From: Scheffersomyces stipitis CBS 6054
Taxonomy: Eukaryota > Ascomycota > Pichiomycetes > Serinales > Debaryomycetaceae
NCBI RefSeq assembly: GCF_000209165.1
Contig: NC_009042.1
Location: forward strand, 1,736,001-1,800,000
Direction of reading: 5' to 3'
Length of the DNA: 64,000 bases
A model generated the notes under the pieces. It worked only from the letters and a program-made list of their open reading frames with translations, was not told the origin of the DNA and made no database searches. Shown one piece after another: positions 12,662 through 26,786 of this stretch. A program made the translations under genes and the position numbers. Position 1 is the first letter of the stretch; each line of letters starts with the position of its first letter.

Positions 12662-13876
12662 CTAATCCCTGGGCGAATATTCTTCTACGTAGTTCCTTGG
12701 AAAGATTCCAACTACTCCATCCAACTCCCCTTTCCACCAGTTTCCATTCCTAGTTAACACCGTGATAATATCACCATGTTTGAATGAAAGATCACCTTCC
12801 TGCTGTCCCTCAAAGTTAAATTTTGCCATGTAGTAGTAGGAGTTGGTCTCCTTGAGAATGGGGTTCCTGTTCTCTGGTTCTAAAGCCAAAGTAATATCAG
12901 AAAGATACCGGTCTCTAAAGTTGATTAGAGTGAGTTGGTTAATGGAGTCATAAGCTCCCAAACTGTCAATGGAATTTTGAGTCATAAGCTCATCTGCGAA
13001 ATTGGGAGACGAAATGATTCTGACATCCAAATTGATGAAATTGGCATACGATTTGCATCTGCTTGAAAATTGAAAGTAGTTCATGAGCTGGACATAGTAG
13101 ACGTACTCCTGCAAAGGGGTCAAAATCAATTCCACCAACTTCAAGAAATAGGGTAATTCTTTTTTTAAGAGATCATTAATCTCATCAAACTTGACCTTAT
13201 TCTCTTCCAATTTTCTCTCTGAACTGAACAATTGCTGAGACTGCTTAACAGTAAGCTCTCCAGACTTTTGCTTTAAAAGCAAGTTGTCATGACTATTGTA
13301 GACTTTGTCGTAGTCTACCAAGGCATAAGACCTGACTCTTATCTTCTTGTGAATATTGTTTATATTTGAGTATATTTCTTGGATTTTCAGCTCAACCATA
13401 GCTGCAAGGGTTTTGGTTTCATTCTCAATTTCAGATTTGCACATATTTATTGTTTCAATGTAGTTGTTCACGTTTTGCCATTTCCTGTATTGGTCTTCGA
13501 AAACTTGGGAATTGGACTGTTCACCAGTCTTCTTCGCTAGATCTTCGTATGGATCATAGAGAAGAGAATAACCTTTGCCAACCGCTGTACTTCTATCCAA
13601 CAATGTTAAGGTACTTTTGGAATACATCTTGACATACTTTTCTACCGATTGAAGTGTCTTTTCCGTTTCCTTAAATTGCTTCTCTAAATAATTGAATTCC
13701 TCATCAGATGTATATGAGCCATTTCCAAATTTGATTCTCTGTTTGAGAAATTGGGGAGTTCTTTTAAGATAATTCCAATCCAACTCCTTGGTACTTGATT
13801 TGATGCGACTGTCTACTACTTTGAGCTGTTTTGACATCATCGATGAAAGTTGGCCGTAGCATGTTTCTTCACTCAT
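12662..13876 (-). CDS. BAR-SH3 protein, Rvs167/amphiphysin family
   Basis: A 404-residue protein with an N-terminal BAR domain (about 1-245; helices containing KRTPQFLKQRIKFG and LKKELPYFLKLVELILTPLQ) and a C-terminal SH3 domain (about 345-400; AKFNFEGQQEGDLSF, NGNWWKGELDGVVGIFPRNY). BAR dimers bend membranes at endocytic sites, and the SH3 domain recruits proline-rich actin regulators. The linker is shorter than the Gly/Pro/Ala-rich linker of S. cerevisiae Rvs167. Candida species carry several Rvs167-like proteins, and this may be one of the shorter paralogues (Rvs167-2 or -3 type) rather than Rvs167 itself. Start ATG is 13874-13876. Confidence 0.85.
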   Translation of the reverse strand: MSEETCYGQLSSMMSKQLKVVDSRIKSSTKELDWNYLKRTPQFLKQRIKFGNGSYTSDEEFNYLEKQFKETEKTLQSVEKYVKMYSKSTLTLLDRSTAVGKGYSLLYDPYEDLAKKTGEQSNSQVFEDQYRKWQNVNNYIETINMCKSEIENETKTLAAMVELKIQEIYSNINNIHKKIRVRSYALVDYDKVYNSHDNLLLKQKSGELTVKQSQQLFSSERKLEENKVKFDEINDLLKKELPYFLKLVELILTPLQEYVYYVQLMNYFQFSSRCKSYANFINLDVRIISSPNFADELMTQNSIDSLGAYDSINQLTLINFRDRYLSDITLALEPENRNPILKETNSYYYMAKFNFEGQQEGDLSFKHGDIITVLTRNGNWWKGELDGVVGIFPRNYVEEYSPRD

Positions 13877-14369: not shown

Positions 14370-14399
14370 ATGATTAATCTTTTTAAGCAGACAAGATGA
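14370..14399 (+). promoter_or_regulatory. uORF overlapping the PTH1 start codon
   Basis: A nine-codon frame starts at ATG 14370-14372 and stops at TGA 14397-14399. Its stop overlaps the PTH1 ATG (14396-14398) as ATGA. If transcripts begin upstream of 14370, ribosomes would meet this ATG first, so PTH1 translation would need leaky scanning or reinitiation. The transcript start is not known. Confidence 0.4.
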
Positions 14400-15040
14400 T
14401 GATACGACACCTTGCCGCTTCATATCTTGTACCCATACGGCCGAGCACAGTTTCTCAATCAAGGAGGCTACTTTTTATAGCCTCGATAGGCAATCCGGAG
14501 CCCAAATATGAGGGAACTAAACACAATATTGGACATCGAATGCTCGATCAACTAGTGGATATATACTGGAAAGACCATCTAGTGAAAGATGGCCCTTATT
14601 ACAGGTCGACTAAGTATTCCAATATTGTCCTATTCAAATCCAATGACTCATTGATGAATTTACAAGGAAAGGCTGTTTCCAAGCATTACAGACAATTCCA
14701 GAAGGATTCACAGCTTGTGATACTTCATGATGAACTCCAGGTGCCAGTGGGTAAGTACCAGATTCGGAAGCCTAGTACTAGTCCCCGTGGGCATAATGGA
14801 TTGAAGTCAATAAACCAGCACCTACCCAATAATTACACTAAAGTTGCCATTGGCATTGGAAGACCATCCGACAAACGTCATGTTGTAGATTATGTGATGT
14901 CTAAATTCAAGGATCTGGAACTCGAGGAGTTAGATTTTGAAGTTTTGCCCAAATGTGTTAAAGAGCTCGAGAAACTTGTGGAAATGGATAAGGAGGCAAG
15001 AAAGGAGAGAGTAGACAAGAAAGTTGAAGTATCTGTGTAA
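14396..15040 (+). CDS. PTH1: Peptidyl-tRNA hydrolase, Pth1 type
   Basis: The 214-residue enzyme hydrolyses the ester bond of peptidyl-tRNAs dropped by ribosomes. Bacterial-type Pth motifs are present: FIASIGNPEPKYEGTKHNIG with the catalytic histidine, LMNLQGKAV, LVILHDELQVPVGKYQIRK with the conserved aspartate, and RGHNGLKSI. The residue before GHNGL is Arg rather than the usual Gly. The basic, Ser-rich N-terminus (about 1-25) looks like a mitochondrial presequence, as expected for yeast Pth1. The C-terminus is acidic then Lys-rich. The in-frame ATGATG at 14396 gives two adjacent start choices, and a uORF overlaps the first. Confidence 0.9.
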   Translation: MMIRHLAASYLVPIRPSTVSQSRRLLFIASIGNPEPKYEGTKHNIGHRMLDQLVDIYWKDHLVKDGPYYRSTKYSNIVLFKSNDSLMNLQGKAVSKHYRQFQKDSQLVILHDELQVPVGKYQIRKPSTSPRGHNGLKSINQHLPNNYTKVAIGIGRPSDKRHVVDYVMSKFKDLELEELDFEVLPKCVKELEKLVEMDKEARKERVDKKVEVSV

Positions 15041-15606: not shown

Positions 15607-16598
15607 ATGGAATTCTTTCTCCAGCTTGCGGCCGAGAGGTCTGTCGTCCGTGAGTCTATCAAGGGTAAGTAATGTTGGAAGTGTGCGATTATGGAATCTG
15701 TATAAGATTGATGGAACAATACCACGAGAAAGCCATCAAAGCATTATGGGATCATAAGATATAGAGAATACTATAATGAGATAATATGGAGCATATAACT
15801 GAGATCTATAACCGATAGTTCATGGTTCTACAACTTGTAGAAGAAAATCTACCACTAATTGTGCAATCCATAGACAATACCCATCATATACTATCTTATT
15901 CATGACTCTATAATCATAACGTACAGACAAGTACTAACTTTCTAGGTGTAATATGGACCATTTTCTTCCATCGACTCTTCGGCCCCATAACTCCAGTGAC
16001 AAACGAATTCCTCAACACCACGTATCCAATGGCAGCGAACTTGCCAGACTTGGATTCCTTAATAGACGAGAAGATCAGCAGACTCATTCGACAGTTTGAT
16101 TCGGTGAACGCCAAAACAGGACGCATAGTTATCAAATTCCTAGATAAGAATAAGTCGAAGTCAAAGAAAAAGACCGGCTGGTTTGCTAAAGCAGACAGTC
16201 CTGAAGACGAAGTCAAGGTGTGGGAAGTATGGATATTAACAGTAACGTGCATTCCGCTAGAGGAACCGAGAGATAGCAATACCAGTAACAGCAGCAACAG
16301 CAACAACAGCAATAGCAATAACAACAATACTAGCAACAATAGTAATAACGATAGTAGCAATGGAAACAACAGCCCAGCTATCGAGATTTCCATCCGGAGT
16401 TTCGACGAAAACCTCAATAAGATTATAGATATCGCTGATACCCACAAAGACCACATTCCGCCCATCATGACGTTGGATAGCTCTCCGTTCCCATATGTAA
16501 TTGAAGTAGGGCAACCCACCAGCAAAGAAGGTGAAGAGCACGATGAGAGCTGGGGTGAATATATCAAAAAAATGCTGACTCGGTTCAATGAGATATGA
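15607..16598 (+). CDS. ATG101: Autophagy protein Atg101 (HORMA domain), two exons
   Basis: The gene is join(15607..15664, 15946..16598) and encodes 236 residues. Exon 1 gives MEFFLQLAAERSVVRESIK; the codon for Gly20 is split by the intron. Exon 2 continues VIWTIFFHRLFGPITPV and carries the Atg101 hallmarks: the start block ending in FFHR, a basic stretch before Gly-Trp-Phe (W98-F99, the position of the WF finger), then KVWEVWILTV matching PWEVWTVKV of animal ATG101, and the end block DHIPPIMT...PFPYVIEV plus a terminal amphipathic helix WGEYIKKMLTRF. An Asn/Ser-rich insert occupies about residues 130-162. Atg101 pairs with Atg13 in the Atg1/ULK initiation complex. S. cerevisiae lacks it. Assignment is by motif reading, not search. 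Confidence 0.85.
15665..15945 (+). other. Spliceosomal intron of ATG101
   Basis: The 281-bp intron begins with the canonical GTAAGT (15665-15670), has a perfect TACTAAC branch site at 15932-15938 and ends TTTCTAG at 15945. The branch-to-acceptor distance is very short. Splicing joins exon 1 in phase 1 to exon 2 and restores the conserved N-terminal block of Atg101, while the unspliced frame stops at TAA 15670-15672. Confidence 0.9.
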
Positions 16599-16789
16599 TA
16601 GTATAGAGGGTACTTATCAACATAAACTATAGACAAGTATCTACATCTACCGGTATATATAAAGATGATAGAATAATGATAATAGTATATACTCTTTCAA
16701 TATATCATGTTGGTATACCCAAACATATAGTAAATCTAATCATCCATTTTCCACTCTACCATTGCTATATTCCCCTAAATACATAGCAT

Positions 16790-17278
16790 CTACAAATTAG
16801 CACTGTGCAAACCTTCTTCTCCTCTGACCAATATACATTCGTCTTCGTAGACTACCTTGCTGAACAAGCCGATCTTTTCAGCTGTATCCAACACTTCCTG
16901 GTCGTAGCTTCCAGGTTGAAACCATAATCCCTTGACGATGTTTTCGTAACCCTCTACATCAGCTATCTGCTTTAAGGTAGTTGTTGTGATATGAGGAGGA
17001 GTCAAGAAAGAGATGCTCAATCCATCCACGTCCAGCAACTTATAACCGTTCAAATCTGACTTGGCTACAATAGACTCCAAAATCTGAGTCACATTAGAAA
17101 TGACATTTTGACCCAAAATCTCCTGTTCTCTAGGGTTTATTGGTATAGCCGTTAAGTTGTGAGAGACATACCAGCTCAAGATCTTGAATCCGAATTTCGT
17201 AGGATTGTTACTGGCTCCAGCCACAGCATATTGTCTGGTAGGGCCAAAAAAGGCTCTGATTTTGGACTTCATAGACAT
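16790..17278 (-). CDS. CoA-binding (YccU-type) Rossmann protein
   Basis: A 162-residue single-domain protein of the CoA_binding_2 family, related to the nucleotide-binding half of succinyl-CoA ligase alpha subunits. Visible features are the start block FFGPTRQYAVAGASNNPTKFG with the glycine/serine loop, the strand-turn AIPINPREQEILGQ, the central LSISFLTPPHITTTT, and GLWFQPGSYDQEVLDTAEK. It lacks the catalytic histidine domain of the ligases, so it is more likely a CoA or nucleotide binder of unknown role. The start ATG at 17276-17278 leaves a short basic N-terminus. It is convergent with ATG101. Confidence 0.85.
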   Translation of the reverse strand: MSMKSKIRAFFGPTRQYAVAGASNNPTKFGFKILSWYVSHNLTAIPINPREQEILGQNVISNVTQILESIVAKSDLNGYKLLDVDGLSISFLTPPHITTTTLKQIADVEGYENIVKGLWFQPGSYDQEVLDTAEKIGLFSKVVYEDECILVRGEEGLHSANL

Positions 17279-18143: not shown

Positions 18144-20609
18144 ATGCCTAAAGAAAAACGAACAAAGCCGTGTTCGAACTGCAAAAAGTCCAAAGTCAAG
18201 TGTATATACGAAGGTTCTCTACCATGCCAAAGATGCGTGAGGACTGGCCAGGCAGTCAACTGTATGTTTGTGCCGAAGTTACCTTCCTTGAAGTTACCAC
18301 CCATATCCAGCCAGGTTCCACAGCCTGTTTCAGTAGAAAGACCGAGCGAAATGTCATTACCTCCATTGAATCCATTAGGCATAACCAATGGAGCTATGAC
18401 TCCTGTAAGGCAGAACGAGCAATTCATAGTATCACACAATCCCGTCGTTAGCCATGTACAACGGCCACCAGCTAGCGACAACCAATGGAAAGCGCAAATA
18501 GAAACGAGAATGAATACATTTGATAACAAGCTCAGTGACTTGGTCGACATCTTGAAGACTAACCAGCAGTTCATGATGGATAGCCAGTACCATAGTCGAA
18601 ACCAGAACCCACAAATTCTATATGAACAATTTCCATACCAGCAGCAGCACAGCAGCATACAAGGCAATATCCAACACAGAAACAATATCTCACATAATAA
18701 CATTTCACATAACTCACATCTTCACCAAGCCCAGATTCTGCTGGCTACTTATAGCAGTTATCCGGCCTCCAGAGCCTATTCTCCGGTGCAGCCCATTGCT
18801 CCACAACCACAATATCAAACTGTGTCGTATCCAATCGGCACAAATAGCAGTAATGACAGTAGCAACAGTACCTTTTCTAACGAGATACCGTCAGATAGAA
18901 GAAGAAAGGCAGAAGAACAACCTACAGACGCCAAGCGTAAAAGGACAAACAACGAAGAGATACAGTATCCCGTAGATTTTCGTGATGGATTTTTGTCTAA
19001 AGACGAGGCCAATAATCTCTTTGCCTACTTCGATGCGAATATCTCCCAACAGCTCTTTGGATTCGAGATTTCTAAAGTGTCTGTAGACTCCATCTGGGAT
19101 TCATGTCCCGTGCTTGTCTGTGCCATATGTACCATCGCTTCTATACATCATCCGTCTCTTTCGAAGAAGTCGAAGCAGTTGCAAGTCTATCTTCAGGACT
19201 TGTGCCAGACTTTACTTTTCAAAGGAAAACCAGAAACCGAGACAGATGGATTCAACACCATAGTTGCGCTTATATTGTGTAGTTTCTGGCTCTCAGACTC
19301 GCAGATGTTCACGGGTCTAGCAATGCAGCTTGCAAAAGAGTATGGCTTCAACAATCCATACAGCAAGAACAAGGATAAGTTGAAGCTATGGTATCTTCTT
19401 TACGTTCTAGACGGTCAGCAGAGTTTGACGTTTAATCGACAGCCCTTAGTGAATGCACAGGAATTCTCCTTGAAACACAGCAGGGAGATTCTTTTGACAG
19501 AACAAAACCCATTACAAATTGACAACAGCAAAAATGGCAAGTCAAATATATTGTTGGACAGCGAAGAATTAAAGGAAAAACTGGAATCTTCTAATGCTGC
19601 TGACGTAAGAAAGGAAAGATTCACAGATATGAGATTGGTATCTCAAGTAGAATACAATCAAGCATTGAATGAAGCTTTCCAAGGAAATGCATGGGATCTC
19701 TTGGCTCCTTCTTCATTCGGTATTCCTTCGAAGAGCAACTTGGAGTTGGACAAATGGATGGTTTCTTGGACTGTATTACTTTCTCCAGGAAATCATGGAG
19801 CTGTGTGGTCTTCCAAATCCACATTGATCTACTATAACTTCGCCAAGATGCACATAAACTCTTCAGCCGTGAGACAGCTTCAAGTTAACCCCAGCGACAA
19901 TATTAATATGTTACCCAAATTGAACGAAAACGCCAACTACCCAGAAAATACTAGAAGAATAGACTCTCAAGTAGCACCAGCAGATTCAAGCGACGAAGAC
20001 ACGGACGACGATCTGCCCTCACCTTCCGATGAAGACGAGTTTATCTCAAATGAGGGTATAATGTCAAAAGACGAGAAGATTGTTACAGCCTCTATAGCAG
20101 TCAGTGCAGCTCAAACAGTGTTGAACTTGGTAATTAACGACAAAGACATCCTTGACAACTTGAAATACGTTCCTGTTCACATCCACATCATGCTTTATTA
20201 TGCAGCCTTGCTCTTAATCAACCCACCTCTAGAGTCCATTAACCAATCCGTAGAATTTAAACCCGAGGACTATTATCTGCAGTTGTTGAACAATATTAGA
20301 GTAATCAAGACTCTTCAGAAGAAGATCTACAACAACTTACCGATTGACACTAAGTTTGGGAATAGACTCATTAGAAGTTTGAATGATATCGTTGATGAAA
20401 AACTCACCAGCTTGAAAAAGTTGTTGGTGGAGTTGCCAGAAAGCAATGCAAAGATAGAACTTTTGAAGAACCACACTTCTCTTATCGATTCAATAGACGC
20501 TAAAAATATTGTCGAAATTTTTGAGAACGATAGCACCAGCAGCAGAGGATCAACTCCAGGTCCAGAAAGAATCGCGGCATGGCCAGGTTCAAATCATGGT
20601 CACCCATAG
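18144..20609 (+). CDS. Zn2Cys6 transcription factor
   Basis: An 821-residue regulator with a zinc cluster at C10, C13, C20, C28, C31 and C40 (CX2CX6CX7CX2CX8C) starting almost at the N-terminus. A Gln/His/Asn/Ser-rich linker spans about 150-260. The middle region has FRDGFLSKDEANNLFAYFDA, then PVLVCAICTIASIHHPSLS and ALILCSFWLSD...GLAMQLAKEYGF, the layout seen in Aro80- and War1-like regulators, although I cannot assign an orthologue. An acidic Ser/Asp patch (SSDEDTDDDLPSPSDEDE) near residue 615 could be an activation or phosphorylation segment. It is probably nuclear. Base composition is like its neighbours. Confidence 0.85.
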   Translation: MPKEKRTKPCSNCKKSKVKCIYEGSLPCQRCVRTGQAVNCMFVPKLPSLKLPPISSQVPQPVSVERPSEMSLPPLNPLGITNGAMTPVRQNEQFIVSHNPVVSHVQRPPASDNQWKAQIETRMNTFDNKLSDLVDILKTNQQFMMDSQYHSRNQNPQILYEQFPYQQQHSSIQGNIQHRNNISHNNISHNSHLHQAQILLATYSSYPASRAYSPVQPIAPQPQYQTVSYPIGTNSSNDSSNSTFSNEIPSDRRRKAEEQPTDAKRKRTNNEEIQYPVDFRDGFLSKDEANNLFAYFDANISQQLFGFEISKVSVDSIWDSCPVLVCAICTIASIHHPSLSKKSKQLQVYLQDLCQTLLFKGKPETETDGFNTIVALILCSFWLSDSQMFTGLAMQLAKEYGFNNPYSKNKDKLKLWYLLYVLDGQQSLTFNRQPLVNAQEFSLKHSREILLTEQNPLQIDNSKNGKSNILLDSEELKEKLESSNAADVRKERFTDMRLVSQVEYNQALNEAFQGNAWDLLAPSSFGIPSKSNLELDKWMVSWTVLLSPGNHGAVWSSKSTLIYYNFAKMHINSSAVRQLQVNPSDNINMLPKLNENANYPENTRRIDSQVAPADSSDEDTDDDLPSPSDEDEFISNEGIMSKDEKIVTASIAVSAAQTVLNLVINDKDILDNLKYVPVHIHIMLYYAALLLINPPLESINQSVEFKPEDYYLQLLNNIRVIKTLQKKIYNNLPIDTKFGNRLIRSLNDIVDEKLTSLKKLLVELPESNAKIELLKNHTSLIDSIDAKNIVEIFENDSTSSRGSTPGPERIAAWPGSNHGHP

Positions 20610-24716: not shown

Positions 24717-26786
24717 ATGACAAACTCAGTCTCCACGTTCAACCCGGCGCATCCCAACAACTCGCTTGCGTTGTCGCTCTTCAACGTGTACAAGTCTAAT
24801 CGGTCGTTGTTTCTCAATTCTTCATATATCATTCTCATCACTTTGGCCTTTTCTAGGGCTACCAACACGGGCGAGAAAAGAGACCTAGACATCTCCAAAG
24901 ATAAGAAGAGAATTGACGAAAGGGCCTCGTCACATCCTAAGTTGTCTAAGGAGTCGTTCTACCGCCTTGCTCGTGCCATCTTTCCCTCAGCGACAGACCC
25001 TACCATCTTGTACTTTTTGGGCCACTCGATTCTTCTAGTCTTCAGAGCTCTTCTCACTATAAAGGTCGCTAGTTTAGATGGTCAGTTGGTAGGAGCGTTA
25101 GTGACGAAGAGATTGAGAAAGTTTGCCAAATTGCTTATGATTTGGATGGGATTAGGTCTTCCAGCTTCTATCGTCAACGCTCTTTTGACCTGGACAAAAC
25201 AGAATTTGAGTAAGGCAATCAGGGTCAACCTCAACAACAGCATAATGGACGACTACTTGCCAGACAACTTAGACGCAAACTACTACTCGTTGATCCAGTT
25301 GTCAGGTAATAAGATCAAGGATCCGAACCAAAGAATCACTACCGATATCACCAGATTGAGTTATGCCTTGAGTAGCTTACCGGGGCAATTGTTGAAACCA
25401 ACTTTGGACTTACTCTTGTGTGCACAGCAGTTAAGTAAAAGCGGTGTAGGTAACGGCGAGGGTACATTGGCTCTTGGAATGCTTGCCCATTTCTCTACAA
25501 TGATCTTGAGATTCTTCTCCCCGCCTTTCGCCAAATTGGCATCAGAAAGAGCCAATCTTGAAGGTCAGCTACGTTCTTCTCATTCCAAGATTGTGAGCAA
25601 CAGCGAGGAAATCGCTTTCTTGAGAGGGCATCAACGAGAGTTGGATTACATCGACTATTGCTACTACACCTTGGAGAGATTCCTGAAGAACGAGATTTGG
25701 AAAAAGGCAATTCATGAAATTGCGCAAACTTTCATTGTCAAGTACTTCTGGGGTGCAGCTGGTTTGGTGTTGTGTTCAGCTCCAATTTTTATCAACAAGT
25801 ATCTTGGCGAAGACCCAGATGCCGACCATGCTGGTGACTTCATCACTAATAGAAGATTGTTGATGAGTGCCTCTGACTCGTTGGATAGATTGATTTACTC
25901 AAGAAGATACTTGCTTCAAATCCTTGGTCATGCCACCAGAGTTTCCGACTTACAAGACACTTTGTTCGAGTTGAAGAACAAGAAGAAATCGACAAAAAAT
26001 ATCGAAATGAACAACGAAGAAATTACCTTCAAAGACGTCAGATTGTTGACTCCAGCAGATGTTACCTTGATCGAGTGCTTGAACTTTTCAATAAAGAGAG
26101 GTGACCATCTTTTGATTGCTGGTCCAAACGGTTCTGGTAAATCTTCTCTATTCAGAATGTTAGGTGGTTTATGGCCATGCAAGGAAGGAAGTATAACCAT
26201 TCCTAACACAGAGAATATGTTCTACTTGCCACAGAGAGCTTACTTGTGTCAAGGTTCATTAAGAGAACAAATAATATATCCTCACAACTTGAAACAGTTT
26301 AGAGCCAGCCAAAAAACCGACCAGGATTTGAAGGATATCTTGACTCTCTTAAAGTTAGATGATCATTCAGACCGTTTGGATGATACCACCAATTGGAGTG
26401 AAGAGTTGTCTACCGGAGCCCAGCAAAGACTTGCCATGGCCAGATTGTACTACCACAAGCCTAGATTCGCAGTTTTGGACGAATGTACTTCAGCCGTATC
26501 TCCTGATATGGAGCAATTCATGTACAAACATGCCCAAGAACTCGATATCACGGTGTTGTCTGTTGCTCATAGACCCGCTTTGTGGCATTTCCACAAATAT
26601 TTATTGAAGTTCGATGGAAAAGGTGGGTACTACTTTGGAAAGCTAGATGCTGAAAAGAGATTGCAGTTCGAACATGAAAGAATTTTGCTCGACAAATCTT
26701 TAAGAGATGTACCAAACTTGAGAGAAAGATTATTTGAATTGAAAAAGGTGTCTACGGCTCAACATAAGAAGATTGACCATATATAG
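24717..26786 (+). CDS. PXA2: Peroxisomal ABC half-transporter (ABCD family, Pxa2-like)
   Basis: A 689-residue half-transporter with an N-terminal membrane domain (about 15-380) and a nucleotide-binding domain (about 440-680). The ABCD-specific EAA-like loop NSEEIAFLRGHQRE is present. Walker A is GPNGSGKS (469-476), the signature is LSTGAQQRLAMAR in place of LSGGQ, and Walker B leads into FAVLDECTSAVSPDME. ABCD proteins import very-long or long-chain acyl-CoA into peroxisomes as heterodimers, Pxa1 with Pxa2 in yeast. The degenerate signature suggests an asymmetric pair. It is shorter than Saccharomyces Pxa2 (about 850), mainly at the N-terminus. The Pxa2 assignment over Pxa1 is moderate. Confidence 0.75.
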   Translation: MTNSVSTFNPAHPNNSLALSLFNVYKSNRSLFLNSSYIILITLAFSRATNTGEKRDLDISKDKKRIDERASSHPKLSKESFYRLARAIFPSATDPTILYFLGHSILLVFRALLTIKVASLDGQLVGALVTKRLRKFAKLLMIWMGLGLPASIVNALLTWTKQNLSKAIRVNLNNSIMDDYLPDNLDANYYSLIQLSGNKIKDPNQRITTDITRLSYALSSLPGQLLKPTLDLLLCAQQLSKSGVGNGEGTLALGMLAHFSTMILRFFSPPFAKLASERANLEGQLRSSHSKIVSNSEEIAFLRGHQRELDYIDYCYYTLERFLKNEIWKKAIHEIAQTFIVKYFWGAAGLVLCSAPIFINKYLGEDPDADHAGDFITNRRLLMSASDSLDRLIYSRRYLLQILGHATRVSDLQDTLFELKNKKKSTKNIEMNNEEITFKDVRLLTPADVTLIECLNFSIKRGDHLLIAGPNGSGKSSLFRMLGGLWPCKEGSITIPNTENMFYLPQRAYLCQGSLREQIIYPHNLKQFRASQKTDQDLKDILTLLKLDDHSDRLDDTTNWSEELSTGAQQRLAMARLYYHKPRFAVLDECTSAVSPDMEQFMYKHAQELDITVLSVAHRPALWHFHKYLLKFDGKGGYYFGKLDAEKRLQFEHERILLDKSLRDVPNLRERLFELKKVSTAQHKKIDHI

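Follow-up and report, generated by a model that had tools for sequence, protein, structure and literature searches.

Atg101 acts at the start of autophagy and is lacking in Saccharomyces cerevisiae. In fission yeast and humans, it pairs with the HORMA domain of Atg13; Atg13 of budding yeast has an extra element, the cap, that makes Atg101 dispensable. Passages of one review describe Atg101 as absent from budding yeast and species as tending to have either Atg101 or the Atg29-Atg31 pair, for a reason that is called a riddle (PMC4506457). Like Atg101, Atg29 and Atg31 of Saccharomyces cerevisiae are accessory subunits of the Atg1 complex; unlike Atg101, they bind Atg17/Atg11 and not Atg13, and the same passages report no detectable sequence or structural similarity between the two (PMC4506457). 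Excerpts of two other papers state that the C-terminal helix of human ATG101 recruits the phosphatidylinositol 3-kinase (PI3K) complex (PMC6952983) and that the extreme C-terminus of human ATG9A, the HDIR (residues 830-839), docks on the Atg13-Atg101 dimer, its P834 and H837 being highly conserved, budding yeasts excepted (PMC9931213). Here we describe the ATG101 gene of Scheffersomyces stipitis CBS 6054 (Serinales, Debaryomycetaceae), which lies in a window of 64,000 nt (the whole stretch of DNA that was analysed; contig NC_009042.1, positions 1,736,001 to 1,800,000). This window is on contig 2 of the genome that we searched, which comprises 8 contigs and 15,441,179 bases. We find that the product of the two-exon gene is very probably a complete Atg101, predicted to pair with Atg13, and that Atg13, the scaffolds Atg17 and Atg11, and Atg9 are encoded elsewhere in the genome.

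The spliced gene of 711 nt yields a protein of 236 amino acids, followed by a stop. This protein scores 131.2 bits against the Pfam profile of the family, PF07855 (ATG101), where the cut-off is 26.5, and the match spans profile positions 2-157 of 158. Only one copy of ATG101 was found in the genome (match at G000:C2:1751942-1752475). The solved structures nearest to its predicted HORMA fold are those of Atg101. The protein differs from Atg101 of Schizosaccharomyces pombe (Mug66, PDB 4yk8 chain A) by an Asn/Ser-rich insert at residues 130-162, which is mostly missing or variable among the aligned relatives, and it has 17-22% identity to human ATG101 (5c50, 4wzg, 5xuy, 8do8). At the WF-finger position, W98 and F99 are invariant across an alignment of 53 of the 54 homologues that we found and align with the WF of S. 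pombe and the W-P-F positions of the human protein, in a loop that has low confidence in the AlphaFold2 (AF2) model. The C-terminal region aligns with that of S. pombe Atg101, and the model has a helix there, at residues 210-222 of the deposited S. stipitis protein, P0001. A sequence-only reading of the window had recognized Atg101 by its length and by the motifs FFHR, GWF (at the WF-finger position) and VWEVWILTV. All three motifs are present in the spliced protein, and the profile search, the alignment and the structure comparison all agree with that identification.

The same reading had described a two-exon structure, and we observe each of its elements (GTAAGT, TACTAAC, TTTCTAG and a product of 236 amino acids) at 15607-16598. 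It had also held that neither exon alone gives the full protein, and this proved correct: unspliced exon 1 reaches a stop after 21 codons, and the exon 2 frame is closed on its 5′ side by a TGA at 15903, the open part after this TGA having no family N-terminus. By themselves, the splice signals are weak evidence at chance level. The pattern GTA[AT]GT..TACTAAC..YAG occurs once on the two strands of the window taken together, with a simulated mean of 1.13, and was obtained at least once in 124 of 200 order-1 Markov simulations of the window. The pattern was dropped as stand-alone proof, since chance yields about one per window. The gene contains a single CTG codon, at position 230. CTG is translated as Ser in CTG-clade yeasts, and P0001 has Ser at this codon too.

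Such a chance rate would suit a gene in which translation begins at an internal start and is confined to exon 2, with exon 1 and its splice signals coincidental, and exon 2 alone does reach 113.5 bits against PF07855. However, the translation of exon 1 argues against this. It matches 15 of 19 residues of a family consensus (assembled by eye from the relatives and typed in), while the best other 19-mer among the 127,882 in all six frames matches 8, and 12-15 of its 19 residues are identical in the other 15 homologues with a clean junction, part of which come from the same species. Including exon 1 adds 17.7 bits to the PF07855 score, and in the AF2 model this exon forms strand 1 and some of helix 1; additionally, the sequence of P0001 implies the same intron junction. 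We therefore regard translation of exon 2 alone as highly improbable, and the comparisons with relatives make a strong case in which the significance of the splicing rests on the coding match and not on the signals. It is harder still to credit that the gene encodes another HORMA protein, of the Rev7 or Mad2 type; this was rejected on the PF07855 match and on a fold nearest to solved Atg101, and is strongly disfavoured.

The novelty of the gene is low because it is already public under the right UniRef name. The best homologue in our search was P0001 itself, which aligns with the whole query (100%) at 94% identity; UniRef calls it Autophagy-related protein 101, and NCBI has it as "predicted protein [Scheffersomyces stipitis CBS 6054]". 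Its deposition and UniRef name qualify the expectation that the gene would easily be left as a hypothetical protein. P0001 has 224 amino acids, 12 fewer than the 236 found here, and lacks a frame-keeping GT..AG stretch of 36 nt in the Asn/Ser repeat. Of all 36-nt deletions in exon 2, only the exact removal of this stretch recreates P0001. It is retained in P0003, a separate fragment sourced from ENA. This comparison suggests that the stretch is probably a false annotated intron in the deposited model.

ATG101 is not special to S. stipitis, as judged from the relatives that carry it. The protein search returned 54 homologues, all with PF07855. An organism is shown for 19 of these rows, and all 19 (two of them Candida albicans) are from yeasts that we take, from their names, to belong to the CTG clade; the genera are Scheffersomyces, Priceomyces, Suhomyces, Yamadazyma, Spathaspora, Candida, Metschnikowia, Debaryomyces and Diutina. 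The retention of Atg101 in a budding-yeast lineage, as proposed from the sequence, holds. A relative is reached by this search only if it has short exact words in common with the query, and the limits of Atg101 among yeasts are therefore not mapped by these 54. Among the papers listed in literature searches, judged by titles and the starts of abstracts, none was on Atg101 in CTG-clade yeasts. By a pattern script, 16 of the 54 homologue models have a clean N-terminal junction, 5 have the N-terminus with an irregular junction, 15 have W-x-x-FF with no recognized N-terminus and 18 start later. In two of the 15 (P0024 and P0025), the N-terminus is present as a variant (ANRS, ADRS), which the pattern missed. 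In six models (P0008, P0009, P0021, P0023, P0024 and P0025), extra residues separate KG from the conserved Trp that follows it, a result to be expected if the same intron was mishandled. The warning of a missed exon, which the sequence-only reading had given for this gene, is borne out in the relatives because of these extra junction residues, and with a clean junction in only 16 of the 54 models it fits them better than it fits the deposited protein of S. stipitis itself.

Using genome searches, we were also able to locate genes for the rest of the complex. ATG13 has one locus (271.7 bits), which covers PF10033 positions 1-233 of 233; two loci resemble ATG17, at 255 and 200.2 bits, and are read as Atg17 and, by its longer frame, Atg11; and ATG9 has one locus (L006, G000:C8:114475-116043; 585.1 bits). 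By analogy with fission yeast and humans, S. stipitis Atg101 would pair with the HORMA domain of Atg13 and stabilise Atg13 within the Atg1 kinase complex, and its WF finger and C-terminal helix may help to recruit downstream autophagy factors. ATG29 was not found in the genome with PF18388 or with Atg29 of S. cerevisiae, Trichomonascus and Aspergillus as queries, in searches that had no positive-control yeast genome; the Trichomonascus and Aspergillus queries reach 73.1 and 98.3 bits, respectively, against PF18388. The Atg29 profile search gave 98 proteins, and the 54 rows that show an organism consist of 28 Saccharomycetaceae, 1 Trichomonascus and 25 filamentous fungi, with no CTG-clade yeast among these 54.

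The sequence-only reading had set Atg101, as an ancestral partner kept in this lineage, against the Atg29-Atg31 pair with which S. cerevisiae, together with Atg17, supports Atg13. Atg101 is indeed kept, but the contrast is not simply one of ancestral and derived, because Atg29 profiles reach filamentous fungi. According to a review seen in excerpt, Atg29 and Atg101 co-occur in Magnaporthe oryzae, on the basis of unpublished data (PMC9643702). Because of this co-occurrence and the Atg29 matches in filamentous fungi, we tentatively favour a reciprocal loss, in which the budding-yeast ancestor may have possessed Atg29 as well as Atg101; Atg101 would then have been lost in the Saccharomycetaceae, and a recognizable Atg29 (Atg29/Atg31) in the CTG clade, which kept Atg101. 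This is the better fit of the two schemes; its Atg101 half is well supported and its Atg29/Atg31 half is unproven. If the loss was reciprocal, S. stipitis might possess a hybrid Atg1 complex made of Atg101, a budding-yeast-like Atg13, Atg17 and Atg11 as two distinct proteins, and an Atg9 with no HDIR motif, and Atg101 would have to act without docking of Atg9 of the human type.

Several points weigh against this scheme or against a role carried over unchanged from fission yeast. The HORMA region of S. stipitis Atg13 scores 150.7 bits against Atg13 of Lachancea (4j2g) and 107.7 bits against Atg13 of fission yeast (4yk8). Whereas human ATG9A has the C-terminal HDIR with P834 and H837, the tail of S. 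stipitis Atg9 contains no P-x-x-H, the sole one being at residue 698 of the 1004-aa frame (counted from the first Met), and S. stipitis has therefore kept Atg101 without a recognizable HDIR. With a Lachancea-like Atg13 and such an Atg9, the complex is not simply fission-yeast-like, and the role of Atg101 in S. stipitis may differ from that in fission yeast. A passage of another review has budding yeast losing ATG101 and gaining Atg29 and Atg31, and a gain of this kind counts against shared Atg29 ancestry (PMC4931673). The absence of Atg29 is itself not shown, because the searches had no positive-control genome. Additionally, ATG31 left one sub-threshold trace, on C5 (L005; 18.1 bits, genome E 0.0188), and the 50-aa piece concerned reaches 22.9 bits when searched alone (E 9.3e-05), where the Pfam cut-off is 25.

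The missing control and an ATG31-like stretch just below the cut-off also fit a CTG clade that keeps Atg101 plus highly diverged Atg29 and Atg31, with both subunit sets in the complex, for which M. oryzae, with its reported Atg29 and Atg101 (unpublished data in PMC9643702), offers a precedent. We consider this unlikely. The Atg29 profiles reach as far as Trichomonascus and filamentous fungi and yet match no CTG-clade yeast among the organism-labelled rows, and Atg31 is said, in a passage of PMC4506457, to misfold without Atg29. As an ATG frame, the ATG31-like stretch has 49 codons and ends in a stop; by eye, it sits in an intergenic gap close to what resembles a tRNA, and the C-terminal part of the family is not seen beside it. 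It is not accepted as Atg31, although it may be one. Another Atg31-like stretch, picked by eye on the strand opposite L005, was a false match, as Pfam was blank on two pieces and on X-joined frames.

Table 1. Features of the ATG101 gene and of the ATG31-like stretch. Positions are those of the window, except where a genome position is given.
Feature	Position	Strand	Remarks
ATG101 exon 1	15607..15664	+	ATG at 15607; 19 codons and the first base of the Gly20 codon (MEFFLQLAAERSVVRESIK-G)
ATG101 intron, 281 nt, phase 1	15665..15945	+	5′ GTAAGT at 15665; 3′ TTTCTAG ending at 15945
Branch-site consensus TACTAAC	15932..15938	+	Inside the ATG101 intron
ATG101 exon 2 with TGA stop	15946..16598	+	Most of the Atg101 HORMA domain; PF07855 113.5 bits alone
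Trp98-Phe99 codons, WF-finger position	16179..16184	+	By alignment with relatives, S. pombe and human
Asn/Ser-rich low-complexity insert, residues 130-162	16275..16373	+	Within a HORMA-fold loop
GT..AG stretch of 36 nt, frame-keeping, in Asn/Ser repeat	16342..16377	+	Missing from P0001; probably a false annotated intron
C-terminal helix, residues 222-234	16551..16589	+	Helix in AF2 model (P0001 residues 210-222)
ATG31-like stretch (L005)	G000:C5:1250292-1250441	minus	Sub-threshold profile match

ATG101 is flanked by genes of other families. Its upstream neighbour, likewise on the plus strand, encodes a peptidyl-tRNA hydrolase (14396-15040; PF01195, 139.8 bits). Further upstream, the minus strand encodes a protein that has BAR and SH3 domains (12662-13876) and that we take from its domain order to be Rvs167-like. 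Downstream are a minus-strand CoA-binding-domain protein (16790-17278; PF13380, 88.9 bits) and a Zn(2)-Cys(6) fungal transcription factor (18144-20609; Zn_clus 23.6 bits, Fungal_trans 24.6 bits). An open frame of 240 aa (bacterial code) runs antisense to ATG101 exon 2 at 15914-16636 and is probably mechanical. A looser form of the splice pattern has a second site in the window, at 25413 on the minus strand.

A budding yeast that has Atg101 and no recognizable Atg29 would allow both solutions to be swapped and compared inside one subphylum. With ATG101 carried by 19 named rows (two from C. albicans), "budding yeast" should not stand for S. cerevisiae, and through S. stipitis ATG101 the question of how yeasts rewired autophagy becomes testable.
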